From contig NZ_CP078078.1 of NCBI RefSeq assembly GCF_023101205.1, positions 2,108,001 to 2,172,000 on the forward strand: a DNA stretch of 64,000 nucleotides, given 5' to 3'. The stretch is from Microbacterium aurugineum. Its GTDB lineage: Bacteria > Actinomycetota > Actinomycetes > Actinomycetales > Microbacteriaceae. This document shows positions 44,878-60,575 of this stretch, piece by piece (position 1 is the stretch's first letter; every line of letters begins with the position of its first letter). Position numbers and translations under genes: made by a program. A model generated the notes under the pieces. That model was not told where the DNA came from and did no database searches. It saw only the letters and a program-made list of their open reading frames with translations.

Positions 44878-46977
44878 TCAGCCAGCGACCCCCATCGCCT
44901 GGGCGAGCGGCGGCGCCAACCGACGGACGTAGTCCAGATTGAGGTGATCGGCGTCGTAGTAGACAGACACTCCACCGATCACGGCGTAGCACGCGTCCGA
45001 GTCGCAGAAGTAGGGATCTGCATCGAAGGCGCGGATCGCCGGCGACGCCGACTGTGCGGCCGCGACGAGATAGGGGTCGCTGGGCTGCGCCTCCGATCTC
45101 GGAACGGCGCAGGCGCCAGGGTTGCCGGCGTTCACCACCACGCAGTCGGGAGAGCGCACCTCTCCGTTGAACGGCACACCGCCGAGGGGGATGACGGTGA
45201 TGCCCGCATCAGCCCACTCCGTCCAGGTACGCACGAGCCCGTCGGCGAACTGGACGTCCTGAGGACGACCCGACCCGTCCGCGACGAGCTGTACGCGGCC
45301 GGCGGAGGAGGTCAGCACGAAATCGGGCTTCTGCTCGACGACGGCTGCGCGCACGGCCGTCGACCAGTCCCGACACTTTTGCTGATCGGCTCCGGGTGCC
45401 GCCTTGCGAAAGCCGACGAACGGGACATCGATGACGGGGCATCCGCCCCCGAAACTCGCCGTCACCGACCAGTGGTTCTGACGCGCGAGATCGAACACCG
45501 CCCCCTGCCACTGCTGCGCGTGCGAATCGCCGACGAGCCAGACTGTGGTCGGATCCTCGGTGCCATCGCTGAAGTCGCATTCCACCGTGGCGGTCTTGTC
45601 GCCGAACGGCAGCAGGTCCCGGCGGGCGACGCACTCTGCCGGGACGTGGAAGTACGAGTTCCGCGGCCCCATGACGGTCTCCACGGCTGGAGCGAAGCGG
45701 TCTTCGCAGCTCACCGACTGCGGCATTGCCTGCGGTCCGACACATTCCTGGATGGTCACGGAGATCGGCGGCACGTCCGCTGCCGCGCGGACGTTGCCGG
45801 CCAGCATCAGGGCACCTCCGGCGACGATCACAGTCGCCATGCCTGCCAGCATGGCAAGGAAGGTACGCCGATTCGACGCGGCGACCAGGCGCCAGCGTTG
45901 CCCGGGACGCTCCACTAGCCGATACGTCAGCCAAGCCAGGACGAAGGCGACACCGAGGATGCCGACCTTCATCATTGTCGTCATCGTGCTCGCCAGTGCC
46001 GACGGGACAAGGACGATCAGCGGCCAGTGCCACAGATAGAGGGAATACGACACGTCCCCGAGCCATTGCACGGGGCGCAGGGAAGTGAGCCGCGAGTGCC
46101 ACAGCCGCTGCGTGACAGTGCCCGCGGCGATTACCGCTCCCGCGCCGAGTACGGGGAGGAGCGCATACGCGCCAGGGAACGGCGTCTCCGGCCCGAACGC
46201 CACGGCCGACACGGCAATCACGACGAACCCGATGATCGCGACGACGTTGGCTGCGAGCCGTGGCAGTCGTCGGAACGTGACGAGAGACAGGAGGCCGCCG
46301 ATGCCGAATTCCCACGCACGCGTGTAGGTGACGAAGTATGCCTGACTCGGCATCCCCGCGGTCGCGAACATGCTGATCGCGATGCCCAGCGTGACGACGA
46401 CGCTGAGCGTGATCGCGGCCACGAGGCGCGGACGCCACGCCTTCTTCGCAGCCCACCACCAGGTGGCGAGGAGGAGAAGTGGCCAAACGAGGTAGAACTG
46501 TTCCTCGACCGACAGAGACCAATAGTGTTGCGCCACGGTTGCCTGGTCGTTGAGAGCCGAGTAGTCGACCGACATCGCGGCGAGGAACCAGTTCTCGACG
46601 TAGCCGGCACTCGCCATGATCTCGGCTCCGCCGCGCGTCCATCGCGGGTAGGGCAAGACCAGGAGGGTTCCGACCGCGCTCACGAGGAGTACGAGGAGCG
46701 CGGCCGGGAGCAGTCTCCGCACGCGCCGGGCGTAGAACGACGCGAGCGCGATACGTCCGCTCGAGGTCGCGTCGCGGACCAGATGACTCGTGATGAGGAA
46801 TCCGGAGATCACGAAGAACACATCGACACCGATGTATCCACCGGTCAAGCGCGTCGGCCACAGATGATTCAAGACGACCGCGAGGATCGCGATGGCGCGT
46901 AGCGCCTGGATGTCAGGGCGGAAGCCCCTCCTGACAGACGACGGGGCTTCCGGCGTCTGGATCAGCGTCAGCGTCAG
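44878..46977 (-). CDS. Acyltransferase 3 / SGNH membrane protein with probable CTG start
   Basis: 699 residues if read from a CTG at 46977. The first membrane helix contains RPDIQALRAIAILAVVLNHLW, the invariant acyltransferase-3 start, so coding must begin well upstream of the first standard start codon (TTG at 46872, inside helix 1). No ATG, GTG or TTG exists in frame above it, whereas the CTG overlaps the upstream stop as CTGA. About eleven helices follow (FFVISGFLITSHL, SLSVEEQFYLVWP), then an extracytoplasmic SGNH domain with GDSH and the DxxH pair in DADHLN. These enzymes O-acetylate or otherwise acylate surface glycans. Confidence 0.85.
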   Translation of the reverse strand: MTLTLIQTPEAPSSVRRGFRPDIQALRAIAILAVVLNHLWPTRLTGGYIGVDVFFVISGFLITSHLVRDATSSGRIALASFYARRVRRLLPAALLVLLVSAVGTLLVLPYPRWTRGGAEIMASAGYVENWFLAAMSVDYSALNDQATVAQHYWSLSVEEQFYLVWPLLLLATWWWAAKKAWRPRLVAAITLSVVVTLGIAISMFATAGMPSQAYFVTYTRAWEFGIGGLLSLVTFRRLPRLAANVVAIIGFVVIAVSAVAFGPETPFPGAYALLPVLGAGAVIAAGTVTQRLWHSRLTSLRPVQWLGDVSYSLYLWHWPLIVLVPSALASTMTTMMKVGILGVAFVLAWLTYRLVERPGQRWRLVAASNRRTFLAMLAGMATVIVAGGALMLAGNVRAAADVPPISVTIQECVGPQAMPQSVSCEDRFAPAVETVMGPRNSYFHVPAECVARRDLLPFGDKTATVECDFSDGTEDPTTVWLVGDSHAQQWQGAVFDLARQNHWSVTASFGGGCPVIDVPFVGFRKAAPGADQQKCRDWSTAVRAAVVEQKPDFVLTSSAGRVQLVADGSGRPQDVQFADGLVRTWTEWADAGITVIPLGGVPFNGEVRSPDCVVVNAGNPGACAVPRSEAQPSDPYLVAAAQSASPAIRAFDADPYFCDSDACYAVIGGVSVYYDADHLNLDYVRRLAPPLAQAMGVAG
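46919..46952 (-). promoter_or_regulatory. Hairpin at the dehydrogenase-acyltransferase junction, enclosing an AGGAGG
   Basis: CGGAAGCCCC (46919-46928) and GGGGCTTCCG (46943-46952) form a perfect 10-bp stem with a 14-base loop, 22 bases after the dehydrogenase stop. On the mRNA an AGGAGG spans the loop and stem. No T-run follows, and the hairpin lies inside the acyltransferase's first 20 codons, so an attenuator or translation-control element is as likely as a terminator. Confidence 0.5.
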
Positions 46978-48278
46978 GCCTCGGTGTGCGCAGTGCCGAC
47001 GACGATGCGCGGCGTACCGGCCCAGCGCGCCGCATCTGTCGCCGCTCGTCCGTCGACGAGAAGCTTGATGCCCGGCAGCTGCGCAGGCGTGAGCTCCCTG
47101 TAGTCGGCGTGATCGGTCTGCAGGATCGCGAGATCGACTTCTCCGCCGATCGTGTACGGCTCGAAGCCAAGGCCTCGCAACTCCTCGTCGGTGTACAGCG
47201 GGTCATGCACGACGACCTCGGCACCGCGATCCTCAAGGGCCTTCACCGTCGGGAAGACGCCGGAGAACGCCGTCTCCTTGACGCCGCCGCGATAGGCCGC
47301 GCCGAGCACGACCGCGCGCTGCCCGCTCAGGTCGCCCAGGATGCCTTCTGCCTGCGCGACGAGCCGCTCCGGCATGGAGGCGTTCAGCTGACGCGCCACA
47401 CGGACGATGTCGGCATCGGGGTCCGTCGACAGGTACAGACGCGGGTAGACGGGGATGCAGTGGCCGCCGACGGCGATGCCGGGTCGGTGGATGTGGCTGT
47501 AGGGCTGCGAGTTGCAGGCTTCGATGACCTTGTAGACATCGATCCCGTGCGAGGCGGCGAAGAGCCCGAACTGATTCGCGAGGCCGATGTTCACGTCGCG
47601 GTAGGTCGTCTCGGCGAGCTTGGCCATTTCGGAGGCCTCTGTCGTGCCGAGGTCCCAGACCCCGTTCGGACGAGGAAGGTCGGGGCGCTCATCGAACTGC
47701 AGCACCGCCTCGTAGAACTCGCGTGCGCGGCGGTTGCCCTCGTCGGAGAGCGCGCCGATGAGCTTCGGGTACTTGCGGAGGTCTGCGAACACCCGACCGG
47801 TGAGCACCCGCTCGGGTGAGTATGCCAGGAAGAAGTCCTCACCCTCGACAAGTCCGGAGCCCTCCTCGAGCATCGGCTTCCAGCGGGTGCGGGTGGTCCC
47901 CACGGGGAGCGTCGTCTCGTAGGAGACGAGGGTCCCAGGGGTCAGGTGCTCGGAGAGCGAGCGGGTCGCGGCGTCCATGTACTTGAAGTCCGGTTCCCAG
48001 GTCTCATCGTTCACGAAAACGGGAGCGACGAGCACCACGGCATCCGCACCGGGGATCGCATCACCGTAGTCGGTGGTCGCCCGCAACCGTCCGGAGGAGA
48101 CCAACTCGGAGAGCCGCTCCTGGAGTTCGGCCTCGCCGGGGAAAGGCTCCTGCGCTGCGTTGATCGTGTCGACGGCCTTCTGGTTCACGTCGACGCCGAT
48201 CACCTCGTGACCGGAAGAGGCGAACTGGACGGCGAGGGGAAGCCCGATCTTTCCGAGGGCGACGACGGCGATACGCAT
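46974..48278 (-). CDS. UDP-HexNAc 6-dehydrogenase (WbpA/WecC-type nucleotide sugar dehydrogenase)
   Basis: 434 residues. N-terminal NAD motif MRIAVVALGKIGLPLA, catalytic Cys in AVGGHCIPVYP and a complete C-terminal UDP-binding domain (GAAYRGGVKETAFSG). The GGHCIPV motif is that of UDP-GlcNAc/UDP-ManNAc dehydrogenases rather than GGSCFPKD of UDP-glucose enzymes. It would oxidise C6 of UDP-GlcNAc, the first step toward 2,3-diamino uronic acids. The ATG at 48278 is supported by TAGAAT seven bases upstream; the ATG at 48287 falls within that element. Followed by the acyltransferase. Confidence 0.85.
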   Translation of the reverse strand: MRIAVVALGKIGLPLAVQFASSGHEVIGVDVNQKAVDTINAAQEPFPGEAELQERLSELVSSGRLRATTDYGDAIPGADAVVLVAPVFVNDETWEPDFKYMDAATRSLSEHLTPGTLVSYETTLPVGTTRTRWKPMLEEGSGLVEGEDFFLAYSPERVLTGRVFADLRKYPKLIGALSDEGNRRAREFYEAVLQFDERPDLPRPNGVWDLGTTEASEMAKLAETTYRDVNIGLANQFGLFAASHGIDVYKVIEACNSQPYSHIHRPGIAVGGHCIPVYPRLYLSTDPDADIVRVARQLNASMPERLVAQAEGILGDLSGQRAVVLGAAYRGGVKETAFSGVFPTVKALEDRGAEVVVHDPLYTDEELRGLGFEPYTIGGEVDLAILQTDHADYRELTPAQLPGIKLLVDGRAATDAARWAGTPRIVVGTAHTEA

Positions 48279-48291
48279 GGTCTTCATTCTA
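48279..48291 (-). promoter_or_regulatory. Leaderless -10 element for the UDP-HexNAc dehydrogenase
   Basis: Minus-strand TAGAAT (48286-48291), one base from TATAAT, with a seven-base spacer to the ATG at 48278. No ribosome-binding site. Confidence 0.6.
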
Positions 48292-48367
48292 TGGTGCGAG
48301 GACCACGTGAACGCCATCCACGCTCCCGGCGTCAGCACGTCCGGTCAATGCTCAGGCGAGTCTCAGG

Positions 48368-48379
48368 CAGAATCGAAAG
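48368..48379 (+). promoter_or_regulatory. Leaderless -10 element for the glycan operon
   Basis: CAGAAT (48368-48373) and six bases (CGAAAG) precede the GTG at 48380. The same hexamer and spacing precede the gene at 60692. Confidence 0.45.
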
Positions 48380-49573
48380 GTGGATTCCCTCATTGGGCGC
48401 CGGATCGCGCTCGTCTCGCGCATCTTCACGCCCGAACCCGGCGCTGCCTCTCTGCGTTTGCGAGCGCTCGCCCGTCGTCTGCACGACGGAGGAGCGAACG
48501 TCGCAGTCTTCACGAGCGCCCCTCCACGTGGCACTCCGTCCGCCGAGCCCTCCGAGCACTACTCCGTCTCCCGCGCGCCGGTGCTACGCGATCGCGCCGG
48601 CTATGTCCGCGGGTATCTCCAGTATTTGAGCTTCGATGTGCCCGCCTTCTTCCGCGTGCTCTTCGCGCGCCGATTCGACGCGCTCATCGTTGAACCCCCG
48701 CCGACCACAGGCGTCATGATGCGCGTCGCTGCTTGGGCGCGCCGCACGCCGTATCACTTCTACGCGGCCGACGTGTGGTCAGAGGCAGCCGCTGTCGCCG
48801 GCGCGCCCGCTTTCGTCGTTCGAGTGGTCCGCTCGTTCGAACGTTTCGCCTATGTAGGTGCGCGTTCGGTGCTCGCTGTCTCGGAGTCCGTCGCTGAGCG
48901 CGTTCTCGCGGTGTGTGAAACCGCTACGGTCACCGTCGTCGGGAACGGTTTCGACACCGAGGTCTTCCGCCCCGACGGCACCATGATCGTCTCCGAGCGA
49001 CCGTACCTTCTCTACGCCGGCACGGCTTCAGAGGTTCATGGAGCGATCATTTTCATCCAGGCCCTGCCTCTCGTTCTCAGCGAAGTTCCGGATGCGAGAA
49101 TCGTGTTCATCGGACAGGGTTCGGAGAGAGACGCGATCTCCGAGGCTGCTGAAGCGCTGGCACCGGGTGCCGTCGAATTCATGTCACGCATGAGCGCTGA
49201 GGAGACGGCGATGTGGATCCGCGGAGCACGCGCTACCTTGGCGAGCATGCTCCCGCACGGCTACGACGCGTTCCCGACGAAGATGTACGCATCCGCTGGT
49301 TGCGGTGTCCCTGTGGTCTATGCGGGTGACAATGCTGACCAGGAGTTCTTCGATCAACCGGGATCCGGATGGACCGCGGACTACGAGCCTGCTGCTGTAG
49401 CGAACGCGATGCTCGAAGCGCTTCGGCACGAGCGCGACGAGCAGGAGACCCGACAGCGGGCAGAGTGGGCAGAGGCGAATTGGTCACTCAGGGCCGTGGC
49501 CGATCGCATCGTCGACAGGCTGAACCCCGAAGCGAAACCCCACCCAAGCCGAGAAAGAGATGCCACAGAATGA
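48380..49573 (+). CDS. Family 4 glycosyltransferase
   Basis: 397 residues, GT-B fold. The N-terminal half has IALVSRIFTPEPGAASLRL, typical of WbuB/WecB-like GT4 enzymes; the C-terminal half has VVGNGFDTEVFRP, RPYLLYAGTASEVHG and PTKMYASAGCGVPVVYAG, which form the nucleotide-sugar site. First gene of a plus-strand operon; its stop overlaps the next start by four bases. It likely adds an early sugar of the surface glycan on a lipid carrier. Donor and acceptor cannot be read from sequence. Confidence 0.85.
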   Translation: MDSLIGRRIALVSRIFTPEPGAASLRLRALARRLHDGGANVAVFTSAPPRGTPSAEPSEHYSVSRAPVLRDRAGYVRGYLQYLSFDVPAFFRVLFARRFDALIVEPPPTTGVMMRVAAWARRTPYHFYAADVWSEAAAVAGAPAFVVRVVRSFERFAYVGARSVLAVSESVAERVLAVCETATVTVVGNGFDTEVFRPDGTMIVSERPYLLYAGTASEVHGAIIFIQALPLVLSEVPDARIVFIGQGSERDAISEAAEALAPGAVEFMSRMSAEETAMWIRGARATLASMLPHGYDAFPTKMYASAGCGVPVVYAGDNADQEFFDQPGSGWTADYEPAAVANAMLEALRHERDEQETRQRAEWAEANWSLRAVADRIVDRLNPEAKPHPSRERDATE

Positions 49574-50757
49574 GCAACGAGCGGCCACGCATCCTGTGCA
49601 TATCCCTCTCCCCTCTGCGCAGCGACGCGCGCGTCCTCCGACAGATCTCGCTTCTGAGTGAGATCGGTGATGTCACCACGGTGGGCTTCGGAGCGGCTCC
49701 CGACGGCGTGTTCGCGCATCACCAAGTTCCCGAAGGCCTCTCGACCCTGCCCCAGACGCCGCTCGGAATCGTGCGCCTCGCATTGCGAATGCACAGGTCG
49801 GCTGAGATCTCCGCGCCGGCTGTTCGTTGGACAGCGAACCGCGTCGGCGGGCATACTTTCGACTTGGTCGTCGCGAACGAGGCACGAGCGCTGGGCGTGG
49901 CGCACCGCATAGCCGACGGAGCTCCTGTCTGGGCGGATATGCATGAATGGGCCCCCGAAGAGCGCACGCACATTCTCCGTTGGCGCTTGCTCGTCGCCCC
50001 GTTCATGGTGCATCTATGCAGGACGTATCTGCCGCCGTCGGCGCTCGTGACCACCGTAGGAGACGGCATTGCCGCCCTCTACCGGCAGCAGTTCGATGTG
50101 CCTGCCTTGGTCATGCGCAATGCCGGCGGATTCCGCGCCCTCAAGCCTTCGCCCGTGAGCGACGAACAGATCAGGCTCGTCCACAGCGGAGCAGCGATTC
50201 ACGGGCGACGACTCGAACTCATGATCGAGACAATGAAACTGCTTGATGCGCGCTTCACTCTAGATCTCTATCTCATGCCCGGCGGCGACGGAGGAGCCTA
50301 CCTGCGAGAGCTCCGTGCGTCAGCCGCGCCGGACAGCCGGATCACCTTCCACCCGCCAGTCCCGCCGGAAGACCTCCCCCGAGTGCTCAATGCGTACGAC
50401 GTCGGGGTGTTCTGGATCCCCCCCACTCACACGAACGCACGCCTGACCTTGCCCAACAAGTTCTTCGATTTCGTACAGGCGCGTCTGATGGTGGCTGTCG
50501 GCCCGTCGCCGGAGATGGCCGAGTTGGTCACGCGCCACGACCTGGGTGTGATCAGCCATGACTTCACACCGGAATCGTGCGCACAGTCGCTAACGTCACT
50601 CGACATGGAATCCGTAAGATCAGCGAAGGCCGCCTCGGATGCGGCAGCGCAGGAGCTCAGCTTCGAAAACGACGCGGCTCACATCCGCGCAGTCATCGAG
50701 CGCATCCTGGGTGCGCGGTCCGGCGGCGAAACCCCCCCACAGGAGGAGAAAGCGTGA
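49570..50757 (+). CDS. GT-B glycosyltransferase, paralogue A
   Basis: 395 residues from an ATG overlapping the previous stop. GT-B signs: RILCISLSPLRSDARVLRQI at the start, WADMHEWAPEER, IRLVHSGAAIHGRRLELMI at the start of the second domain and LPNKFFDFVQARLMVAVGPSPEMAEL in the donor site. It is clearly related along its length to the gene at 55259 (both share ARLMVAVGPSPEM / ARLGVIVGPSPEM segments). The pair probably arose by duplication. Ends overlapping the flippase start by GTGA. Confidence 0.82.
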   Translation: MSNERPRILCISLSPLRSDARVLRQISLLSEIGDVTTVGFGAAPDGVFAHHQVPEGLSTLPQTPLGIVRLALRMHRSAEISAPAVRWTANRVGGHTFDLVVANEARALGVAHRIADGAPVWADMHEWAPEERTHILRWRLLVAPFMVHLCRTYLPPSALVTTVGDGIAALYRQQFDVPALVMRNAGGFRALKPSPVSDEQIRLVHSGAAIHGRRLELMIETMKLLDARFTLDLYLMPGGDGGAYLRELRASAAPDSRITFHPPVPPEDLPRVLNAYDVGVFWIPPTHTNARLTLPNKFFDFVQARLMVAVGPSPEMAELVTRHDLGVISHDFTPESCAQSLTSLDMESVRSAKAASDAAAQELSFENDAAHIRAVIERILGARSGGETPPQEEKA

Positions 50758-52586
50758 AGATCGCTCTGAACCTCTATCGCGAGCTCCTGCAGGCGCTTCC
50801 CACGGACGCACGTCGTTTCCTCAACGTCTACGCCACACTCCTCGCGTCACTCGCCGTGTTCGACGCTGCTGCCTTGGCTCTGCTGGCCGTCGTGATCGGC
50901 CCACTTTCCGTCGGCAATGCGGTGACCCTTCCGCTCGTCGGCACTCTCGACAGCGCAGGTGTAGTCGTCGCGATTCTCGTCATCTGCGCGCTGATGATCA
51001 CGAAAGGCGCTCTTTCCGCGCTCGTGATGCGCTGGGGATCGCAGCGCATCGCCACCTACGAGGTCGCTCTCGGGGATCGACTGTTCCGGGCCTACCTCGG
51101 CGCATCCTGGCAGGAACGTCTCACGAAGAACTCCACAGACATGCTCCGTTTCACAGACGGCGGTGTCGACGCCGCAGTGAACTCGTTCATTCGGCCCGGA
51201 GCAACGTTGCTCGGCGAGGTAGTGAGCATGGTTGTGATGGTGGGCACCATAGCCATCGTTCAGCCGCTGATCGCTCTGGTGACTCTCGTCTATCTGCTGG
51301 CGCTGGCAGCCGTGCTCTATCTGTGGATCGCTCGCCACTCTCGCCGCGCCGGCGAGATCAACGTCGAATCAACGATCCGCACCTCCCGTCTCATCCTTGA
51401 GGTGATGTCGGCCCTGAAGGAGGTCACCCTCCGCCGAAAAGAGCCTGAGGTGGCCGAGGTCGTCGAGCGGAGCCGAACACGCAGCGCACGGGCACGGGCG
51501 AACATCTATTTCCTGGGTCAGGTGCCTCGCTACGTTTTGGAATCAGGAATCATCGGCGGCTTCATCGTCGTCGGCGGTGCCGGATTCCTGATCGGCGGAC
51601 AGGAGCAGGCGATTACCGCCGTGGCGCTCTTCGCCCTCGCAGGGTTCCGCATGGCCCCCTCCGTGATCCGGTTTCAAGCGGCAATCTCGCAGATGCTGGC
51701 TGCTTCGATCTACCCCCGGCGTGTCATCGACGAGCTCACCGCTGCGGAGCACCACATCACTTCGGTCAACGAACGACCGACCGTGCCGCTGCCCTCGCCG
51801 ATCCACAGGATCAGCTTCCGTGACGTCACCTTCGGCTACGACTCGACCGCTGACCCCGCGGTCGAAGGTGTCTCGTTCGACATCGATATCGGAACATCGG
51901 TGGCGTTCGTCGGCTCTTCGGGCTCGGGGAAATCCACCCTGGTCGATCTCCTCCTCGGACTTCTCGAGCCGCAGTCTGGACGCATCGAGATCGACGGGCT
52001 GGATGTGCAGCATGTCGCGAGGGCATGGCGAGATCACGTCGCGTATGTGCCGCAGGAAGTCGCGCTCTTCGACGCGAGCCTGGCACAAAATGTTGCTCTC
52101 ACCTGGACGGATGACTACGACGAACAACGCGTCATCGAGGCGCTACAGAGCGCCCACGTTTGGGACATCGTCGCGAGCCGCCGAGATGGAATCCGGGGAT
52201 CTGTGGGAGAGCGCGGCATGGCACTGTCGGGTGGGCAACGACAGCGCATCGGGATTGCCCGGGCGTTGTACTCCGATCCCCTCGTTCTCGTCATGGACGA
52301 GGCAACCAGTGCGCTCGACACGCAGACTGAGGCCGCAGTGAGCGATTCCATCCGCGCCATGACCGGCGAACGCACCATCGTCACCGTGGCGCATCGGTTG
52401 GCAACCGTGAAGCACGCCGATCAGATCTTCTTCATGAAGGGCGGCCGTCTTGTGCACTCGGGAACATTCGATGAAGTCGTCGCGGCCGTGCCAGATTTCG
52501 CGCGGCAAGCGGCGCTTGCAGGTCTTGCGCCCATGCCCGCTGAGGGAATCGGCGGCGCTCAGCCTTCGGGACCGCACGAAGTGTAA
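50754..52586 (+). CDS. ABC transporter with fused membrane and ATPase domains (PglK/Wzk-like flippase)
   Basis: 610 residues from a GTG inside the previous stop, with AGGAGGAG just upstream. Six membrane helices (about 20-320) precede an ATPase domain: Walker A GSSGSGKST, signature ALSGGQRQRIGIARAL, Walker B LVLVMDEATSALD. The type IV exporter fold, and its place inside a glycan operon, match lipid-linked oligosaccharide flippases such as PglK, rather than drug exporters. It would flip the repeat unit made by neighbouring glycosyltransferases. Confidence 0.85.
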   Translation: MKIALNLYRELLQALPTDARRFLNVYATLLASLAVFDAAALALLAVVIGPLSVGNAVTLPLVGTLDSAGVVVAILVICALMITKGALSALVMRWGSQRIATYEVALGDRLFRAYLGASWQERLTKNSTDMLRFTDGGVDAAVNSFIRPGATLLGEVVSMVVMVGTIAIVQPLIALVTLVYLLALAAVLYLWIARHSRRAGEINVESTIRTSRLILEVMSALKEVTLRRKEPEVAEVVERSRTRSARARANIYFLGQVPRYVLESGIIGGFIVVGGAGFLIGGQEQAITAVALFALAGFRMAPSVIRFQAAISQMLAASIYPRRVIDELTAAEHHITSVNERPTVPLPSPIHRISFRDVTFGYDSTADPAVEGVSFDIDIGTSVAFVGSSGSGKSTLVDLLLGLLEPQSGRIEIDGLDVQHVARAWRDHVAYVPQEVALFDASLAQNVALTWTDDYDEQRVIEALQSAHVWDIVASRRDGIRGSVGERGMALSGGQRQRIGIARALYSDPLVLVMDEATSALDTQTEAAVSDSIRAMTGERTIVTVAHRLATVKHADQIFFMKGGRLVHSGTFDEVVAAVPDFARQAALAGLAPMPAEGIGGAQPSGPHEV

Positions 52587-52604
52587 TCTTGACGAAGAAT
52601 TTCT

Positions 52605-52659
52605 GTCGCGCACACGCGACGAAGAACCGTCCCCACGACGAACCTCGGCGTCACCGAGG
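52605..52659 (+). promoter_or_regulatory. Two small hairpins upstream of the amidotransferase gene
   Basis: GTCGCG-CACA-CGCGAC (52605-52620) and CCTCGG-CGTCA-CCGAGG (52643-52659) lie in the 90-base gap between the flippase and the WbpG-like gene. They may act as an RNA processing or attenuation site that sets a lower level for the downstream genes. No T-run follows. Confidence 0.35.
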
Positions 52660-52676: not shown

Positions 52677-53861
52677 TTGGCAATCGTAAACGGAGAATCC
52701 GTCCAGACTCCTGACGAGTCTCGGCCGTATCAGCGGTGTGTGCGAACCATCATGGACACCACCGATCCGGAAATCTGGTTCGACGAGCAGGGCGTCTCCT
52801 CTCATGCGCTCCGCTTCGATGAAATGATGCGGGCTGACGTTGAGGCAGCGCAGAGCGGACAGCGAGCTGGCGAACTCGACGAGCTTGTTGCAGAGATCAA
52901 GCGCGCCGGCCAAGGCAAGCCCTATGACTGTATCGTCGGCGTCTCCGGCGGGGTCGACAGCACCTTCCTCATTCTCCAAGCGGTCAAGCTCGGCCTCCGC
53001 CCCCTTGCCGTGCATTTCGACAGCGGCTGGAACTCAGAGCTCGCCGTCGACAACATCCACAACATCGTCTCCCGCCTCGATCTCGATCTCTACACCCACG
53101 TCGTCGACTGGCGGGAAATGAAGGACCTGCAACTGTCCTTCTTCAAGGCCTCAGTGGCCAACTGCGATATCCCCACCGATCACGCCTTCGGCTGGGTCGC
53201 CTACCAGCAGGCCGTCAAGTACGGGATCAAGTACATCCTCTCGGGGGCGAACCTCGCGAGCGAGTCGATCTTGCCTCAGTCCTGGGGATACAACGCCTCC
53301 GATGCCAAGCACGTCAAAGGCATCCAGAAGCGGTTCGGCTCCGTCAAGCTCAAGACCTATCCGTTGATGGGGCTCTTCAAGCGCCACATCTGGTACCCCT
53401 ACTTCCGCGGTGTGAAGACCGTCAAGCCGCTCAACCTCATGCCCTATCGCTACAAAGATGCGAAGCGGGAGATCACCGAGGAACTCGGGTGGCGAGACTA
53501 CGGCGGTAAGCATTACGAGTCTGTGTTCACGCGCTACTTCCAGGGTTACTACCTCCCCATGAAGTTCGGATTCGACAAGCGCATCGCTCACTACTCCTCG
53601 CTGATCCTGTCCGATCAGATGACTCGCGAGGAAGCGCTCGAACTCATGGAGACGGAGAACTACCCCGAGGGACTCCGGAAACAGGATCACGAGTTCATCG
53701 CCAAGAAGCTGGGCGTCAGCGTCGACGAACTCGAGCGCATCTATGCGCAGCCGCCGAAGGACTACAGCGAGTACCCGAATGCGAAGAAGCAATGGGAGCT
53801 CGCAATGGCACTCGTTCGTGTTCCCATGAAGGTGCTCAGGGCGCTCGGGATTCGCAAATGA
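52677..53861 (+). CDS. N-acetyl sugar amidotransferase (WbpG/PseA-type)
   Basis: 394 residues from a TTG at 52677, with AAGGAG seven bases upstream. The N-terminus has RCVRTIMDTTDPEIWFDEQGV, the family's opening motif, but the CNHC-type cysteines that usually follow read SSHA. The PP-loop ATP site is VGVSGGVDST (about 90-99), then HFDSGWNSELAV and ILSGANLASESILPQSWGYN. WbpG uses ammonia supplied by HisH/HisF-like partners to turn a 3-acetamido into a 3-acetamidino group on a nucleotide or lipid-linked sugar. Its stop overlaps the hisH-like start (ATGA), which strongly supports the three-protein complex. Confidence 0.9.
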   Translation: MAIVNGESVQTPDESRPYQRCVRTIMDTTDPEIWFDEQGVSSHALRFDEMMRADVEAAQSGQRAGELDELVAEIKRAGQGKPYDCIVGVSGGVDSTFLILQAVKLGLRPLAVHFDSGWNSELAVDNIHNIVSRLDLDLYTHVVDWREMKDLQLSFFKASVANCDIPTDHAFGWVAYQQAVKYGIKYILSGANLASESILPQSWGYNASDAKHVKGIQKRFGSVKLKTYPLMGLFKRHIWYPYFRGVKTVKPLNLMPYRYKDAKREITEELGWRDYGGKHYESVFTRYFQGYYLPMKFGFDKRIAHYSSLILSDQMTREEALELMETENYPEGLRKQDHEFIAKKLGVSVDELERIYAQPPKDYSEYPNAKKQWELAMALVRVPMKVLRALGIRK

Positions 53862-54463
53862 CTGTTTCCCTCGTCGACTACGGTCTGGGAAATCTCGGGT
53901 CTGTCGCGAACATGCTCAAACGCGTCGGCGTCCAGAGCAGGCGTGTGACGACCCCGGAAGAGGTTCTCGACAGCGAGCGGGTACTTCTCCCGGGGGTCGG
54001 AGCGTTCGACGCCGGGGTCCGCCTCCTCAAGGAGAGCGGTCTCCATGAGGGACTGCAACAGTTCGCGCGCACGGGGCGCCCGCTCTTGGGCATCTGCCTC
54101 GGGATGCAGTTGCTCGTCGACACGAGCGCCGAGGGAAGCGAACACGGCCTCGGCCTGATCCCCGGGCATTGCCAGCGCTTCGTTGAGAGCCCCCGGCTCC
54201 GCGTTCCCCACATGGGGTGGAATCACGCACGAGCTTTGCGCTCGGACTCCCTCCTCCATGGTGTCATGGAGGACAGCCGCTATTACTTCGTGCACAGCTA
54301 CCATGTCGTCCCCTCGGCGACGGAAGATGCGCTCGCGGAGACTGAGTACGGCAACACCTTCGTCTCGATGGTCCGCCGCGAAAATGTCATGGGCGCCCAG
54401 TTTCACCCCGAGAAGAGCCACACCTTCGGCATGACCATTCTGAGGAACTTCGCGAACATATGA
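53858..54463 (+). CDS. HisH-like glutamine amidotransferase subunit (WbpG partner)
   Basis: 201 residues. Class I glutaminase: C80 in LGICLGMQ and H183-x-E185 in QFHPEKS, plus LVDYGLGNLGSV and VPHMGWN of the HisH family. It releases ammonia from glutamine. In histidine synthesis HisH partners HisF, but here it is overlapped on both sides (ATGA twice) by a WbpG-type and a HisF-like gene, the arrangement seen in Gram-negative acetamidino-sugar operons. No other his gene is nearby, so a role in histidine synthesis is unlikely. Confidence 0.9.
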   Translation: MTVSLVDYGLGNLGSVANMLKRVGVQSRRVTTPEEVLDSERVLLPGVGAFDAGVRLLKESGLHEGLQQFARTGRPLLGICLGMQLLVDTSAEGSEHGLGLIPGHCQRFVESPRLRVPHMGWNHARALRSDSLLHGVMEDSRYYFVHSYHVVPSATEDALAETEYGNTFVSMVRRENVMGAQFHPEKSHTFGMTILRNFANI

Positions 54464-55221
54464 GTGCATTCCCCCGTGTCATCCCCGTCCTCCTCGTCAG
54501 CGACGGCTATCTTGTGAAGCCGGTGAAGTTCCACGGCGACAAGTACATCGGGGATCCGATCAACGCCGTACGCATCTTCAACGAAAAGCAAGTCGACGAG
54601 CTTGTTATTTGTGACATCGACTCGTCCGTCAAAGGCGCGGGGGTGAACTACTCACTCATCGAGGAGATCGCCAGCGAGGCCTTTATGCCCGTCGGTTACG
54701 GCGGCGGAGTGTCATCCGCCGCCGAAGCTCAGCGCATCACCGGTATCGGTATCGAGAAGGTGATCTTGAACTCTGCTGCTTTCAACAGACCCGAGGCGAT
54801 CGGCGAGATCTCGGCTGCGCTCGGTTCTTCGAGCACGGTGGTGAGTGTCGATGCGAAGAAGCGCCTTACGGGGGGCTGGGATACGTACTCGCAACGGGGG
54901 AAGAAGAAGCTCGGGATGACGCCCGCGGAGGCCGCGCGGCTGGCCCAAGAGCACGGAGCAGGTGAGATCATCGTCTCTGCAATCGACCGGGAGTCGACGT
55001 TCTCTGGCTATGACCTCAAGCTCGTCACTGCCGTCTCAGAGGCAGTAACGGTGCCGGTGATCGCGCTTGGAGGCGCCTCCGGGTACGCAGACTTCGCGCC
55101 GGCTCTGGAAGCAGGCGCGTCCGCCGTTGCTGCAGGCAGCATGTTCGTCCTGAACGGCAAGCACCGCGCCGTGCTGATCACCTATCCGACGCCGGATCAG
55201 ATACGCGCGTTGAAGTCCTGA
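54460..55221 (+). CDS. HisF-like ammonia-channel subunit lacking catalytic Asp11
   Basis: 253 residues, TIM-barrel HisF. It keeps KYIGDPINAVRIFN, ELVICDID, VGYGGGV, D131 in VVSVDAKK (equivalent to Asp130 of HisF) and VIALGGASGYADF. The first strand reads RVIPVLLVSDG, so the position of catalytic Asp11 (CLD in true HisF) is Leu12. That loss fits the HisF2 subfamily, which passes ammonia from HisH to WbpG rather than making the imidazole ring. Starts inside the hisH stop. Confidence 0.9.
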   Translation: MSAFPRVIPVLLVSDGYLVKPVKFHGDKYIGDPINAVRIFNEKQVDELVICDIDSSVKGAGVNYSLIEEIASEAFMPVGYGGGVSSAAEAQRITGIGIEKVILNSAAFNRPEAIGEISAALGSSSTVVSVDAKKRLTGGWDTYSQRGKKKLGMTPAEAARLAQEHGAGEIIVSAIDRESTFSGYDLKLVTAVSEAVTVPVIALGGASGYADFAPALEAGASAVAAGSMFVLNGKHRAVLITYPTPDQIRALKS

Positions 55222-55258
55222 GCGCGCCCGCCCCTTCCGTCGATCGAGGAGCTTCCTT

Positions 55259-56419
55259 GTGACCGTCCGTCGAAAAATTCTCGTCCTGACTTACACGCCC
55301 ATCGCGAGGGAACCGCGAGCACTCAAGCAGATTCGATTCCTCCGGCAGCACCATGACGTCACGACCGCCGGATTCGGGCCGGCTCCTTTCGATGATCTCC
55401 CCCATATCGAACTGCACGATAGCCGACCGTATCGCGGAGGTCTGCTCGGGCGCGCGCTCTACCTGGCCCTGCTCCTTCTGCGTCTCTACCCGTTGGTCAC
55501 GTCGCTCAGTCCTCGCGACGACGCCGCACGCTCGCGACTGGCAGGCACGCAGTGGGACGCGATCATCGCACACGATCCGCAGACAAGTGCCCTCGCGAGC
55601 TCTCTGTCGACGACGCACGGAGTGATCGCAGACCTGCACGAATACTCGCCTCGGCAGAATGAGCATTCGCGGCTCTGGCGCATCCTCATCGCTCCGTACG
55701 TGCGGTGGCTGTGTCGCACATACGTGGCCAAATCGGCCGCGATCGTGACCGTTGGGCAGGGCATCGCCGACGAGTACTACCGAAACTTCGGCATCGTGTC
55801 CACGGTCGTGATCAACGCGACGCCTTTCCACGACCTGACGCCCGGCGCTGTCAAGCAACCGATCAAGCTCGTCCATTCAGGCGTCCCCGGCGTCCAGCGC
55901 AAACTCGAGATCATGATCGACGCCGTCCTACAGACGCGGGCAGACGTCACCCTGGACTTCTTCCTTGTCGACGATGGTTCTGCCTATCTGCAGTCCCTGA
56001 AGGAACGCGCTGGCGGTGATGAGCGGATCCGGTTCAACGACGCGGTTCCGTATGCCCAGCTCGTGCCCACGCTCAATCGCTACGACATCGGTCTGAGCAT
56101 CTTCGCTCCGACCACCTTCAATCTTGCCTGGTGCCTCCCGAACAAGTTCTTCGACTTCATCCAGGCCCGCCTGGGAGTCATCGTCGGACCGTCGCCGGAG
56201 ATGAAACGCATCGTCACGAGGAACGGTATCGGCCGGGTAATGCCCGACTTCGAGGCGTCTTCTCTCGCTGCTCTTCTGAGCGAGATCACGGTCGACGACG
56301 TGGAATCCTGGAAGAGCGCCTCTTCCGCGCACGCCGTCGAGCTTTCGAGCGAGAAGCAGTCGGAGATTTGGGGCGACATCATGGAATCGGTGTTCGGAGA
56401 CGACGAGCAGGCGCGATGA
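55259..56419 (+). CDS. GT-B glycosyltransferase, paralogue B
   Basis: 386 residues from a GTG with CGAGGAGC upstream. Same layout as the gene at 49570: KILVLTYTPIAREPRALKQI, ADLHEYSPRQNEHSR, KLVHSGVPGVQRKLEIMI and LPNKFFDFIQARLGVIVGPSPEM. The acceptor half is more diverged than the donor half, so it may use a similar donor on a different acceptor. It lies just after the acetamidino trio, 37 bases downstream of hisF2, and could transfer the acetamidino sugar; that is inference. Stop overlaps the next start. Confidence 0.82.
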   Translation: MTVRRKILVLTYTPIAREPRALKQIRFLRQHHDVTTAGFGPAPFDDLPHIELHDSRPYRGGLLGRALYLALLLLRLYPLVTSLSPRDDAARSRLAGTQWDAIIAHDPQTSALASSLSTTHGVIADLHEYSPRQNEHSRLWRILIAPYVRWLCRTYVAKSAAIVTVGQGIADEYYRNFGIVSTVVINATPFHDLTPGAVKQPIKLVHSGVPGVQRKLEIMIDAVLQTRADVTLDFFLVDDGSAYLQSLKERAGGDERIRFNDAVPYAQLVPTLNRYDIGLSIFAPTTFNLAWCLPNKFFDFIQARLGVIVGPSPEMKRIVTRNGIGRVMPDFEASSLAALLSEITVDDVESWKSASSAHAVELSSEKQSEIWGDIMESVFGDDEQAR

Positions 56420-57852
56420 CCCCCTCAACGGGCCTGCCCTACAGCCGATCGGTTCGTCTACTTCTCGACGTCGAGGATTCCGAGCCCTCCGAACTCCTGG
56501 AACCGCTCCCCGGCACAGCATTGCCGCTCTGGCCTCGGGTGCGCATGTTCTTTGCGAGCGCCCTCGCCGCCGTGGAACTCGGCGAAACCGGGGTGCCCCA
56601 ACGGCAATCTCGGGCGAAGACCTATCGCAGACTCGCACGGTCGTTCCTCCCTTCCAGGCATGACGCAGCGTGGCTTCGGGGGCGCTCCCCCGTTGTCATG
56701 GTCGCGAGCGGCGTCACGACCTCCCGGGAGGGCGGGTACGAGCGCAATTGGCTCGTCGGCGATCTCGCAGAAGCCCTCGGCCCGGAGGCAACTCTGCTCC
56801 AGTGGACCCCGCCGCACCCCGGAATCAAGCCGGCCTTCCCGCGCACGCGCAGCCTGGACGCGATCAACGCACGCACGGATCTACGTACGTATCGAAGAGA
56901 ACTGTCCACGGAGACGGCAACAGCGATCGATGTTCTCGTGCACCGCTATGCGGCGCTCTTCTCTGGTGCGATCTCCGCTGAGCAAGAGCGGACGATCGCA
57001 GCGTCGGTTCGCTACCAGGAACGGCGAGCACCTCTCCTGCAGGACGCATTTCTCACGGTCATCGATCGTCTCGACCCTCACACCGTTGTCCTGGAGGACG
57101 CGTCCTACGGTCACCGCGGCGGACTCATCCAAGCGATGAAAAAAGATGGCCGACACGTCGCAGAACCTCAGCACGGGTGGATCGGCCCGTCCCACGCTGC
57201 CTACAACTATGGCAGCATCTTCCGCCATGAGGGCCTGCATTCGCAGATTCCAGACGAGCTGCTTCTCTTCGGCGAGTACTGGGGCCGCAGTATCCAGCAT
57301 CCTGCAACGCTGACGACTATCGGCAAGCCGCATCTGCAACGGGCGATGGCGTCGGCACCACCGGTCGCAGACCGCGAGAACATCGCCTTGATCGCCAGCA
57401 GCATCACTGACCCCGATGCAACGACGAGTCTCATTTTGGCCCTACGCAAGAAATTGCCGGGCTGGCGGTTACGCTTCCGTCCGCACCCCTCCGAGCGCGC
57501 GACTCTCGCCGACCGGTATCCCTCTCTGATCGACGTCGTCGGTGTGGAGATCGACCCCCACGACGACCTCTACGAGTCGCTCGCCGACTGCCGCGCGGTG
57601 GTCGGCGTAGCCAGCACCGTCCTCTTCGAAGCGGCCAGCTTCGGTTGCGACGTCCTGGTGCGTCGCAGCCCCTTCACCGAGTACTACGTGGGCGAGCTGT
57701 TCGGACCCGCCTACGATGATGCTCGAGACGTCGAGGCCATGGCAGCTCGTCTGCGCGCGGGCAACACGCCCGTCGACGTGGAATCGTTCTGGGCGTCACA
57801 CAGTCTCGATCTGGTCCGACGTTGGGCCCTATCGACAGGAACGGCAGACTAG
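56416..57852 (+). CDS. GT-B-like polysaccharide biosynthesis protein (TagF/KpsS-like)
   Basis: 478 residues, no membrane segments. The C-terminal half reads EPQHGWIGPSHAAYNYG, ELLLFGEYWGRSIQHP, IGKPHL, LRFRPHPSER and VVGVASTVLFEAASFGCDVLV. The RPHP motif and the Ser/Glu-rich STVLFEA turn resemble glycerophosphotransferases and Kdo/polysialyl transferases with a GT-B core. The N-terminal half (about 1-150) is not recognisable. I cannot name the substrate. Last gene of the plus-strand operon; it converges on the wbpB-like gene with 25 bases between stops. Confidence 0.75.
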   Translation: MTPSTGLPYSRSVRLLLDVEDSEPSELLEPLPGTALPLWPRVRMFFASALAAVELGETGVPQRQSRAKTYRRLARSFLPSRHDAAWLRGRSPVVMVASGVTTSREGGYERNWLVGDLAEALGPEATLLQWTPPHPGIKPAFPRTRSLDAINARTDLRTYRRELSTETATAIDVLVHRYAALFSGAISAEQERTIAASVRYQERRAPLLQDAFLTVIDRLDPHTVVLEDASYGHRGGLIQAMKKDGRHVAEPQHGWIGPSHAAYNYGSIFRHEGLHSQIPDELLLFGEYWGRSIQHPATLTTIGKPHLQRAMASAPPVADRENIALIASSITDPDATTSLILALRKKLPGWRLRFRPHPSERATLADRYPSLIDVVGVEIDPHDDLYESLADCRAVVGVASTVLFEAASFGCDVLVRRSPFTEYYVGELFGPAYDDARDVEAMAARLRAGNTPVDVESFWASHSLDLVRRWALSTGTAD

Positions 57853-57877
57853 AGTTCCCTGGTGCGCTCAGGCCGCT

Positions 57878-58870
57878 TCACTCGACTACCGCGGATGGTC
57901 GATGCAACAGTCCGTCCGCGGCCATCCTTTCAGCAATCTGCACCACTTTGGCCCCCTCGTCGAGCGTCACGATACCTTTCGCCGCCCCGTTGATCACCGA
58001 ATCGCGGAAAGCCTCGTGTTCGGCGAGTAGCGGTTCACGGCGCTCGAGCGCGAAACGGGTGACATCACCTTCGACGACACCACGGAAGGTCGAGACCTGC
58101 TCCCATTCGCTGCGGATCGTCCCGTTCTTGAAATACGTCAGGTCTGCCGTCAGCGTGTCCGCGACGAGCGAGCCCTTCTCGCCCGTGATCACGGTCGTGC
58201 GTTCCTTGAAGGGCGTCAACCAGTTCACCGTGTGCGACGTGATCGTTCCCGAAGAAAGCGTCCCCACCGCCAGCACCATGTCCTCATGCGGACGACCACT
58301 GCGGAACGTGGTGCGTGCATTGACAGACACGTACTGCTGTTGTGTCACCCACGCCGTCAGGTCGATGTCGTGAGTCGCCAAGTCCTTGATCACCCCGACA
58401 TCCGCGATGCGCCCAGGGAACGGACCTTGGCGCCGCGTGGTCACCTGATAGATGTCACCCAGAAGGCCGGCCTCGATCCGCTGACGCGCGGCCTGCAACG
58501 CAGGATTGTATCGTTCGATATGGCCGACACCGCCGATCAGCCCCTTCGCGTCGAAGAGATCCCGCAATGCGCGAGCATCCTCGCTCGTGGAAGCCACCGG
58601 CTTCTCGATCAACGCGTGGATGCCACTCTCCGCCAAACGCGTACCCATCTCGAGATGGTAGACAGTCGGAGCGGCGACGACCACGTATGAGAGGTCTTGG
58701 GCGAGGAACTCGTCGAGGTCGCGGAACACAGGGCGGTCGTGAACGAAATCCGGTGTGGATTCCGCCGGGTCAAAGACACCAACGAACTCGACTCCCGTGA
58801 GCCCGGCAAGAATTCGCGCATGATTGCGCCCCATCACTCCCAGCCCCATCACGCCCGCACGCAGAACCAT
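57878..58870 (-). CDS. Gfo/Idh/MocA oxidoreductase (WbpB/WlbA-like)
   Basis: 330 residues. Rossmann start GVMGLGVMGRNHARIL, the EKP motif (ALIEKPVASTSED) and the GHIERYNPAL and DLATHDIDLTAW blocks of the C-terminal domain are typical. In WbpA-WbpB-WbpE-WbpD sets this enzyme oxidises C3 of UDP-GlcNAcA with NAD to the 3-keto sugar, passing it to the aminotransferase. Its ATG overlaps the aminotransferase stop by one base. Third gene of the minus-strand operon. Confidence 0.88.
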   Translation of the reverse strand: MVLRAGVMGLGVMGRNHARILAGLTGVEFVGVFDPAESTPDFVHDRPVFRDLDEFLAQDLSYVVVAAPTVYHLEMGTRLAESGIHALIEKPVASTSEDARALRDLFDAKGLIGGVGHIERYNPALQAARQRIEAGLLGDIYQVTTRRQGPFPGRIADVGVIKDLATHDIDLTAWVTQQQYVSVNARTTFRSGRPHEDMVLAVGTLSSGTITSHTVNWLTPFKERTTVITGEKGSLVADTLTADLTYFKNGTIRSEWEQVSTFRGVVEGDVTRFALERREPLLAEHEAFRDSVINGAAKGIVTLDEGAKVVQIAERMAADGLLHRPSAVVE

Positions 58871-59967
58871 CAGGCGCCTGCCTTCGCGACGGCGTTCACC
58901 GCGGCGACGACGCGCTCGAGGTCGTCACTGCTCAGCGACGGGTGCACGGGCAGCGATGCGACCTCGCGCGCGGCACGCTCCGTCTCCGGAAGGTCGAGCC
59001 CCGGCGCGAAGTGCGTCAGCGAAGGCAAGCGGTGGTTCGGGATGGGGTAATACACGCCCGCACCCACGTTGTACTCGCTCTTGAGCGCGGCGACGAATCC
59101 ATCGCGGTCCTCGGGGACGCGGATCGTGTACTGGTGGTACACGTGCACCGCTCCGTCGGCGACCGGCGGGACGACGACGCCCTGCAGGTTCGCGTCGAGG
59201 AACGCGGCGTTGGACTGGCGGGTCTTCGTCCAGGCGTCGACCTTGGTCAGCTGCACGCGACCGATCGCGGCGTGGATGTCGGTCATGCGTGCATTGAAGC
59301 CGATGACCTCGTTCTCGTACTGGCGCTCCATGCCCTGGTTGCGCAGGAGCTTCACCTGACGTGCGAGCTCATCGGTCGCGGTCGTCACCATCCCGCCCTC
59401 GCCGCTGGTCATGTTCTTCGTCGGGTAGAGACTGAACATCGCGAACTCGCCGAACGAGCCGACCGGACGACCGTCGAGCGACGCACCGTGCGCCTGCGCC
59501 GCGTCCTCATAGAGAGCGACGCCGCGCTCCGCCGCCAACGCCTCGAGCTCACGCATCCGCGCGGGGTGCCCGTAAAGGTGCACCGGGAGGATCCCTTTGG
59601 TCTTCGGGGTGATCGCGGCCTCGACCGCCGCAGGGTCGAGAGTGAACGTCTCCGGCTCGATGTCGACGAACACCGGCGTTCCGCCCGTGAGCGCGACCGA
59701 GTTGCCGGTCGCGGCGAAGGTGAACGAGGGCACGATGACCTCGTCGCCCGGTCCGACCCCGGCCGCCAGGAGGCCGAGGTGGAGGCCTGCCGTACCCGAG
59801 TTCACCGCGACGGACGGTCGACCGGGCACGAAATGCGCCGAGAACTCCTGCTCGAAGGCGGCGACCTCCGGCCCCTGCGCGACCATGCCACTACGGAGCA
59901 CACGATCGACGGCCTCGCGCTCCTCGTCGCCGATGATGGGCTTTGCCGGGGGAATGAACTCGCTCAC
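58870..59967 (-). CDS. DegT/DnrJ/EryC1 sugar aminotransferase (WbpE/WlbC-like)
   Basis: 365 residues. PLP lysine in SLYPTKNMTSGEGG, the NSGTAGLHLGLLAAG and EDAAQAHGAS segments, and FNARMTDIHAAIG place it in the DegT/DnrJ sugar-aminotransferase family. It would transfer an amino group from glutamate to the 3-keto sugar, giving UDP-GlcNAc(3N)A. The GTG at 59967 overlaps the acetyltransferase stop by four bases. Middle gene of wbpD-wbpE-wbpB. Confidence 0.9.
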   Translation of the reverse strand: MSEFIPPAKPIIGDEEREAVDRVLRSGMVAQGPEVAAFEQEFSAHFVPGRPSVAVNSGTAGLHLGLLAAGVGPGDEVIVPSFTFAATGNSVALTGGTPVFVDIEPETFTLDPAAVEAAITPKTKGILPVHLYGHPARMRELEALAAERGVALYEDAAQAHGASLDGRPVGSFGEFAMFSLYPTKNMTSGEGGMVTTATDELARQVKLLRNQGMERQYENEVIGFNARMTDIHAAIGRVQLTKVDAWTKTRQSNAAFLDANLQGVVVPPVADGAVHVYHQYTIRVPEDRDGFVAALKSEYNVGAGVYYPIPNHRLPSLTHFAPGLDLPETERAAREVASLPVHPSLSSDDLERVVAAVNAVAKAGA

Positions 59968-60575
59968 ACGATCTCCTTGGTCAGTGTTCCGTCAGTCTCG
60001 ATGTAGCGCGCGCCCGTCGAGGGGCACACCCAGGTGTTCTCGTCATCACCGACGACGAGCGGTACACCCGACTCCCCCACCCAGCCGATGCGCTTCGCGG
60101 GGACGCCGGCGACGAGCGCGAAAGCGGGGACGTCCTTGACGACGACGGCGCCGGCAGCGACCGTCGCCCAGGCGCCGATGGTCACCGGCGCTACGCAGGT
60201 GGCCCTCGCGCCGATGGCCGCCCCGCGCTCGATCGTCACGCCGACAGGCTCCCAGTCGTGCGCGCTCTTGATCGTGCCGTCCTCGTTGATCGCGCGAGGG
60301 TACGTGTCATTGGTGAGAACCACGGCGGGACCGATGAAGACGCCGTCGCCCAAGCGCGCCGGCTCATACACGAGCGCGTAGTTCTGCACCTTGCAGTTGT
60401 CTCCCATGACGACGCCCGTCCCGATGTACGCGCCTCGACCGATGATGCAGTTCTCGCCGAGCTGAGCCTGCTCACGCACCTGAGCGAGATGCCAGATGGA
60501 CGAGCCGTCCCCCACACTCGCGGCCGGGGACACATCTGCGGATTCGACAATCCGGACGGGAGTAGGGTGGGTCAC
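59964..60575 (-). CDS. Hexapeptide-repeat 3-N-acetyltransferase (WbpD/WlbB-like)
   Basis: 203 residues from a GTG at 60575 (VTHPTPVRIVE), with GGAAG eight bases upstream; a GTG at 60596 adds seven residues. Left-handed beta-helix repeats run from SVGDGSSIWHLAQVREQAQLGENC through KVQNYALVYEPARLGDGVFIGPAVV to GAIGARATC-type turns, matching WbpD/WlbB acetyltransferases. It transfers acetyl from acetyl-CoA to the 3-amino group. First gene of its operon. Confidence 0.9.
   Translation of the reverse strand: MTHPTPVRIVESADVSPAASVGDGSSIWHLAQVREQAQLGENCIIGRGAYIGTGVVMGDNCKVQNYALVYEPARLGDGVFIGPAVVLTNDTYPRAINEDGTIKSAHDWEPVGVTIERGAAIGARATCVAPVTIGAWATVAAGAVVVKDVPAFALVAGVPAKRIGWVGESGVPLVVGDDENTWVCPSTGARYIETDGTLTKEIV

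Follow-up and report, generated by a model that had tools for sequence, protein, structure and literature searches.

A predicted route to an acetamidino uronic sugar in a glycan gene cluster of Microbacterium aurugineum

Acetamidino uronic sugars, which carry both charges, are rare and best known from Gram-negative surfaces, and the locus described here raises the question of whether a Gram-positive bacterium has the genes to make one. It lies in a stretch of 64,000 nucleotides (the window) at positions 2108001-2172000 of the Microbacterium aurugineum genome, a single contig of 3.63 Mb rated 100% complete. Window positions 42677-63858 are shared with Microbacterium sp. CBA3102 (locus L028) at 99.67% identity over 21,183 bases, a closeness that leaves too few synonymous and nonsynonymous differences for any argument. 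A reading of this DNA from the letters alone (the sequence-only reading) had proposed that seven of its enzymes match the steps to a 3-acetamidino uronic acid known from Pseudomonas aeruginosa. All seven were found as intact open frames where they had been placed, and their family assignments were checked by profile searches. In window order they are:

46974-48278, minus strand: uridine diphosphate (UDP)-N-acetylhexosamine (HexNAc) 6-dehydrogenase, WbpA-like (TIGR03026, 297 bits, over cut-off; best PDB match 4r16)
52677-53861, plus strand: WbuX/WbpG N-acetyl sugar amidotransferase with PP-loop (TIGR03573, 275 bits, cut-off 203)
53792-54463 (open reading frame; inferred start 53858), plus strand: HisH2 glutaminase (TIGR01855, 225 bits, over cut-off)
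54460-55221, plus strand: HisF2, presumed ammonia-channel partner (NF038364, 314 bits, cut-off 310)
57878-58870, minus strand: C3-dehydrogenase of the Gfo/Idh/MocA kind in the WbpB role (Pfam; NF040723, 195 bits, below the cut-off of 450)
58870-59967, minus strand: pyridoxal phosphate-dependent aminotransferase in the WbpE role (DegT, 408 bits; best PDB match 7b0d, 281 bits)
59964-60596, minus strand: N-acetyltransferase in the WbpD/WlbB role (best PDB match 3mqg, 133 bits over residues 19-204)

Presence and integrity of these genes, their linkage and their phylogeny were established directly. Linkage, phylogeny and natural controls support the prediction of an acetamidino-uronic pathway, and we put the probability of the whole account, a predicted route to UDP-GlcNAc(3NAm)A in its gluco form, at a little over three in four.

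In this route the WbpA-like enzyme would oxidise C6, the WbpB/WbpE pair would oxidise and then aminate C3, and WbpD would acetylate the newly made C3 amine, giving UDP-GlcNAc(3NAc)A. HisH2 would take ammonia from glutamine, which would pass through HisF2 to WbuX, and WbuX would activate the 3-N-acetyl group with ATP, NH replacing its oxygen to give the acetamidino group. The sugar would stay in the gluco form, no 2-epimerase of a known type being found, and would bear a carboxylate and an amidinium, making it zwitterionic. A lipid-linked glycan would then be assembled by the cluster's glycosyltransferases and moved by its ABC exporter. We infer all of these reactions, and likewise the order in which C6 and C3 are modified and the glycan's attachment to the wall.

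The amidotransferase is the only TIGR03573 match in the whole genome. The start of HisH2, placed by eye at position 53858, overlaps the WbuX stop, and the Cys, His and Glu of the triad can be seen by eye in its translation. HisF2 was recognised by the model of the "AglZ/HisF2 family acetamidino modification protein" (NF038364); an identity as the housekeeping HisF was rejected, since further PF00977 genes sit elsewhere in the genome. Overlaps of a few bases join the genes of WbuX, HisH2 (with its inferred start) and HisF2, here called the trio, and likewise those of WbpB, WbpE and WbpD. Each of the two sets is therefore probably one operon.

Related clusters were collected by a scan of genome contigs, in which 79 loci were kept of 439 confirmed stretches, with flanks of up to ~30 kb where the contig allowed. 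Thirteen loci (L028-L038, L042 and L043) were treated as actinobacterial, L028 representing the window's own species; L132 and L133 (on another contig than L037) and L136 and L137 (on another than L033) were left out. WbpA lies near the amidotransferase in all 13, split over two frames in L043. WbpE is near it in 12 (not in L034, whose contig ends), and WbpB and WbpD in 10 each (WbpB not in L031, L034 and L037; WbpD not in L034, L035 and L037). In Mycetocola miduiensis (L038) the genes for WbuX, HisH2, HisF2, WbpA, WbpD, WbpE and WbpB follow one another in this order, contiguously and on one strand. The L034 contig is labelled as a Mesorhizobium metagenome-assembled genome (MAG); as its cluster is Microbacteriaceae-like, the label is probably a binning error. 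Separately, L013 and L016 (genomes G075 and G032) carry a WbuX-like domain within a longer protein, next to a WbpA-like gene. This protein looks like a different amidotransferase, its start resembling, by eye, a class II glutaminase.

Natural controls were provided by clusters with a C3-dehydrogenase of the actinobacterial type, which occurs in 60 of 296 genomes of the class (E <= 1e-60). Twelve of the 59 other genomes were used, mostly from the top of the match list and not at random. WbpB, WbpE and WbpD are present in all 12, WbpA within the stretch in eight and an epimerase in three; WbuX, HisH2 and HisF2 were found in none of them (E 1e-10, within the stretch read). For five controls (G106, G079, G170, G301 and G185) a genome-wide search also gave no amidotransferase match, and for the other seven the negative refers to the stretch. 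Among actinomycetes it is common to find the base pathway without the trio, and rare to find the amidotransferase. Two of the controls are congeners: WbpA, WbpE and WbpD of G106 are 85-89% identical to those of the window, and WbpE and WbpD of G756 95% and 91%, respectively. Compared with eight proteobacterial loci, the trio is the closer part of the cluster (WbuX 55-61% identical, HisH2 40-46%, HisF2 43-52%), whereas the base enzymes are at 35-42% (WbpE, WbpD), 29-31% (WbpA, in four of the eight) and 28-30% (WbpB, in three). This contrast fits a native wall-sugar pathway to which an amidine module was added. The 52-54 kb interval is the 2-kb bin of lowest G+C in the window (0.606; 0.59 for the WbuX gene), which fits a later acquisition without proving it. 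A wider scenario, which we advance tentatively and consider doubtful, is that some Microbacteriaceae grafted a module related to that of proteobacteria, with zinc-less enzymes, onto a native actinobacterial teichuronic pathway, giving a zwitterionic wall polymer that in the window species has both GlcNAc(3NAm)A and pseudaminic acid.

The substrate of the 6-dehydrogenase bears on whether a 3-amino uronic acid would be made at all. If the WbpA-like enzyme made UDP-glucuronic acid from UDP-glucose, the 3-amino sugar would not be a uronic acid. This appears very improbable, even though the protein passes a broad dehydrogenase subfamily model only and stays below the cut-offs of the equivalog models. 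It scores 262 bits with the UDP-HexNAc dehydrogenase model NF040825, against 148 and 84 bits with UDP-glucose models, and in all 13 loci its gene lies near that of the amidotransferase. Moreover, a second, UGD-like sugar dehydrogenase lies at genome position 1936935 (L124), for which TuaD is the best equivalog (328 bits, below the cut-off of 700). As this other enzyme most resembles UDP-glucose dehydrogenases, the WbpA-like one is probably not the housekeeping enzyme. Its top PDB match, 4r16, is a hypothetical UDP-ManNAcA dehydrogenase. For the WbpB-like protein, which was scored with a UDP-GlcNAc 3-dehydrogenase model (NF040723), the PDB profile ranking was 7bvj (108 bits), 9azo (87 bits) and 3q2k (86 bits); we take 7bvj to be GnnA, acting on UDP-GlcNAc, and 3q2k to be WlbA, acting on UDP-GlcNAcA. 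A structure model of the WbpB-like protein from 8 sequences reached a mean predicted local distance difference test score of 62, too low for a fold search. WbpE itself is found lower down among the PDB matches of the WbpE-like protein (229 bits), and 3mqg, the top match of the WbpD-like protein, is a lipopolysaccharide acetyltransferase. WbpE, WbpD and WbpA are 88-92% identical to those of Microbacterium arabinogalactanolyticum (L032), with only 56% for WbpB, and an exchange of the C3-dehydrogenase within the cluster seems to have taken place.

Several observations weigh against the proposed pathway. Both dehydrogenases, WbpA-like and WbpB-like, miss the cut-offs of equivalog models, and the WbpB-like protein is 28-30% identical to proteobacterial WbpB in three of the eight loci, with no match in the other five. 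HisH2 and HisF2 are near the amidotransferase in 11 of the 13 loci and missing there in L042 and L043. The amidotransferase exceeds its cut-off in eight of 396 genomes of the phylum and five of 150 of the family. In the seven other genomes of the phylum that have it, no WbpA, WbpB or WbpD was found in stretches of 3.6-20 kb, so that its association with the Wbp genes is one of Microbacteriaceae; one of these seven non-Microbacteriaceae genomes (L170) has PseI. Among the five family genomes, four have a Wbp context and one (G104, on a 9-kb contig) a NeuB-type one. A further point concerns the zinc cysteines of the family, described for a Legionella enzyme and called family-characteristic in PMC10607449. 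At the four places of the motif CxxC...[GN]xCxxC the window protein has C, T, S and A, three of the four cysteines being replaced. Among 93 aligned relatives (sequences above 300 bits with the window protein, repeats of the same loci removed) the tetracysteine motif is complete in 46 and incomplete in 46, one being a fragment. Because 46 of 93 are incomplete, the motif that PMC10607449 calls conserved fails across the relatives; in the actinobacterial set it is kept in L038 and L042 only. The PP-loop SGGVDS is intact in the window protein, and SGGxDS is found in 92 of the 93 sequences, the exception being a fragment. Finally, pseudaminic-acid (Pse) gene sets adjoin the cluster here and, as most of a set, in Cryobacterium (L030), and the trio could serve them.

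These Pse genes constitute the main rival, since one member of the WbuX family, PseA, has pseudaminic acid as its substrate; PMC13317340 lists PseA as cytidine monophosphate (CMP)-Pse5Ac7Am acetamidino-synthase and reports such gene sets in Clostridium. The set begins ~1.4 kb past the window end (positions 5377-10828 of L005, i.e. window coordinates 65377-70828). PseB (489 bits) and PseI (457 bits) are over their cut-offs, and PseC (406 bits, cut-off 423.5) and PseG (134 bits, cut-off 153.6) are below. A CMP-sugar transferase (PseF) is also present, together with a small frame, placed where PseH would be expected, which is acetyltransferase-like by eye and matched no NCBIfam model; a Wzm/Wzt-type exporter sits between the Pse set and the uronic-acid genes. 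CBA3102 has the same set, and Cryobacterium L030 has PseB, C, G, I and F beside its cluster. A trio of the PseA kind would convert the CMP-Pse5Ac7Ac of these neighbours to acetamidino pseudaminic acid and leave the uronic acid as GlcNAc(3NAc)A. We consider this unlikely. PseI is over its cut-off in only three of the 13 actinobacterial trio genomes, whereas WbpA is near the amidotransferase in every one. It adjoins the amidotransferase in two (L028 and L030); the third, in the L036 genome, is on a 4.2-kb contig. The Mycetocola genome, with its seven-gene row, gave no PseI or Epimerase_2 match in a genome-wide search. Outside the phylum, nine genomes with related loci were checked, and PseI exceeds its cut-off in two (L051, Arcobacter, and L040, Bordetella trematum).

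The phylogeny of 127 amidotransferases (FastTree, midpoint-rooted) points in the same direction. Those of Microbacteriaceae cluster together (support 0.99) and are sister (0.98) to seven proteobacterial ones, from Achromobacter, Bordetella, Ramlibacter, Thauera, a Burkholderiaceae MAG, an Accumulibacter MAG and Rhizobium. In six of these seven loci there are also an epimerase gene and genes for WbpB, WbpE and WbpD. L022 and L170, which have a NeuB-type gene in the locus, contribute a single amidotransferase copy each, and both copies sit in a separate deep clade; the window protein falls outside this nonulosonate-linked clade, which is defined by NeuB-linked copies and not by a characterised PseA. 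The clade rests on L022 and L170 together with L083 and L216, each of which places one of its two copies there and the other in the second clade, so that their NeuB label is ambiguous. L071, with a weak NeuB-like match (80 bits, label threshold 100), falls in the part of the tree that holds the window protein. NeuB-like genes occur in two of 14 Campylobacterales stretches (L216 and L218), one of them a partial match at a stretch end, and a search of these 14 stretches for PseA beside PseI yielded no bona fide PseA reference. Taken with the linkage, the tree disfavours pseudaminic acid as the substrate.

Sequence does not reveal where the amidine sits, and the trio might act elsewhere in the uronic pathway, modifying the 2-acetamido group or a sugar already carried on the lipid. 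Two WbuX copies per cluster are found in L029, L030, L031, L036 and L037 (in the last, one is of another clade), so that several sites or sugars may be modified in these relatives. We nevertheless regard such an action as quite improbable in the window species, as its genome has a single WbuX match and the homologous WbpG of P. aeruginosa O5 is stated in PMC10607449 to form the C-3 group. In L029, L030, L031 and L036 only one of the two copies adjoins HisH2/HisF2, and one L031 copy is a fragment.

With UDP-GlcNAc(3NAm)A as the predicted product, the configuration at C2 depends on an epimerase. The sequence-only reading had noted that the window lacks one of the WbpI type, which was borne out; it had also allowed that the gene might lie beyond position 64000, which the genome does not support, as a search with Epimerase_2 (PF02350, the WbpI family) gave no match in the whole genome and matched 11 of 14 control genomes. 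The gluco configuration should therefore be kept, unless a 2-epimerase from outside the known families is at work, and the window species probably stops at the gluco sugar. Known routes to UDP-ManNAc and L-FucNAc require an Epimerase_2 enzyme, and LegG (legionaminic acid), NeuC (sialic acid) and FnlC belong to the same family. Without a match in the genome, UDP-ManNAc would be unavailable to the 6-dehydrogenase by the WecB route. Legionaminic or sialic acid and L-FucNAc, the latter as in Escherichia coli O145, were rejected as substrates, the Epimerase_2 enzymes needed not being found in the genome. Epimerase_2 is present somewhere in six of the 13 actinobacterial amidotransferase genomes. Four have it inside the cluster (L032, M. 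arabinogalactanolyticum; L035, a Leucobacter MAG; L036, a Microbacteriaceae MAG; L042, Homoserinimonas), and these four genes score 253-261 bits with the WecB model (cut-off 210); that of Cryobacterium, far from its cluster, scores 475 bits. Relatives with an in-cluster epimerase probably make a manno version.

The remaining genes of the cluster and its right flank are:

48380-49573, plus strand: family 4 glycosyltransferase (GT4; Pfam Glyco_trans_1_4 and Glyco_transf_4)
49369-50757, plus strand: weak glycosyltransferase-like protein (Glyco_trans_1_4, 24.7 bits, below the cut-off of 27)
50577-52586, plus strand: MsbA/PglK-like ABC exporter, a flippase candidate for a lipid-linked glycan (ABC_tran, 104 bits)
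55259-56419, plus strand: weak GT4-like protein (Glyco_transf_4, 22.8 bits, below the cut-off of 28.5)
56131-57852, plus strand: conserved protein with no Pfam match, in a frame overlapping the preceding one; a relative occurs in Cryobacterium L030
60653-61387, plus strand: PpgS-like polyprenyl-phosphate sugar synthase (NF058614, 272 bits, below the cut-off of 370)
61727-63613, minus strand: DUF6541 protein, possible partner of the PpgS-like enzyme (PF20176, 433 bits)

A flippase and four glycosyltransferase-like genes had been claimed for the cluster. An exporter is present, but it is an ABC type of the MsbA/PglK kind (240 bits with MsbA and 221 bits with PglK, each below its own cut-off) and not Wzx. 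One of the four glycosyltransferase-like genes is a clear case; two others miss the Pfam cut-off, and the last gave no Pfam match. The pair of PpgS-like and DUF6541 genes is also found beside WbpD in L032, and in L042 a PpgS-like gene is beside WbpD with DUF6541 elsewhere in the locus. To the left lie galactan genes, GlfT2-like at 38672-40609 and Glf at 43708-44853, adjoined by a second Wzm/Wzt-like exporter pair at 42172-43850.

Amidines are strongly basic, so that the amidine step would make an acidic wall polymer zwitterionic, and a zwitterionic polymer should bind cations, phages and lectin-bearing toxins differently. The prediction is of a defined wall sugar that can be tested for in a culturable Gram-positive genus, and natural pairs with and without the trio, including the congeners G106 and G756 (trio absent in the stretch read), suit a test of the amidine effect. 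In the Streptomyces work (PMC13274773), variation in this class of polymer mediates which species umbrella toxins target. The suggestion that the glycan would be new to cell walls holds in part: the acetamidino step would be new, but a diamino-uronic acid is already known in Streptomyces walls from the same paper. A literature search for an acetamidino actinobacterial glycan found none by title, subscription journals being largely outside its coverage. As far as the literature searched shows, the uronic acid is known in actinobacterial walls and its amidine version has not been described.

Among known systems, the P. aeruginosa Wbp pathway (WbpA, B, E, D and I with WbpG, HisH2 and HisF2), whose steps are set out in PMC10622841, has the same predicted chain of steps and a trio of the same families. 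It differs in that the window genome has no WbpI family gene and the host is a monoderm; the C3- and 6-dehydrogenases of the window are ~28-31% identical to proteobacterial ones where matched, in a comparison whose proteobacteria exclude P. aeruginosa. The PseA type of Campylobacter shares a WbuX-family amidotransferase, and Pse genes adjoin in the window species, but the window enzyme belongs to another clade (with NeuB-linked copies as the stand-in), and 10 of the 13 trio genomes have no PseI over the cut-off. Achromobacter and B. trematum (L039 and L040) have an amidotransferase 60-61% identical to that of the window, with HisH2, HisF2, WbpB, WbpE and WbpD; what sets them apart from the window is an Epimerase_2 gene and an additional WbuX that belongs to a different clade. 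In Sphingomonas, an exopolysaccharide locus has been described that contains WbuX, HisF2 and HisH genes (PMC11340318). The Streptomyces utr pathway is the parallel from an actinobacterial wall glycan, with dehydrogenase, oxidase, aminotransferase and N-acetyltransferase genes; the terms "amidotransferase" and "amidin" occur 0 times in the main text of that paper (PMC13274773). According to the paper, the teichuronic acid of the S. griseus wall contains ManNAc3NAcA and that of S. antibioticus is a GlcNAc3NAcA homopolymer, with a Wbp-like route predicted for these sugars. These nuclear magnetic resonance data on Streptomyces show that actinomycetes place GlcNAc3NAcA in wall polymers, the utr polymer being attached to ribitol teichoic acid (PMC13274773).

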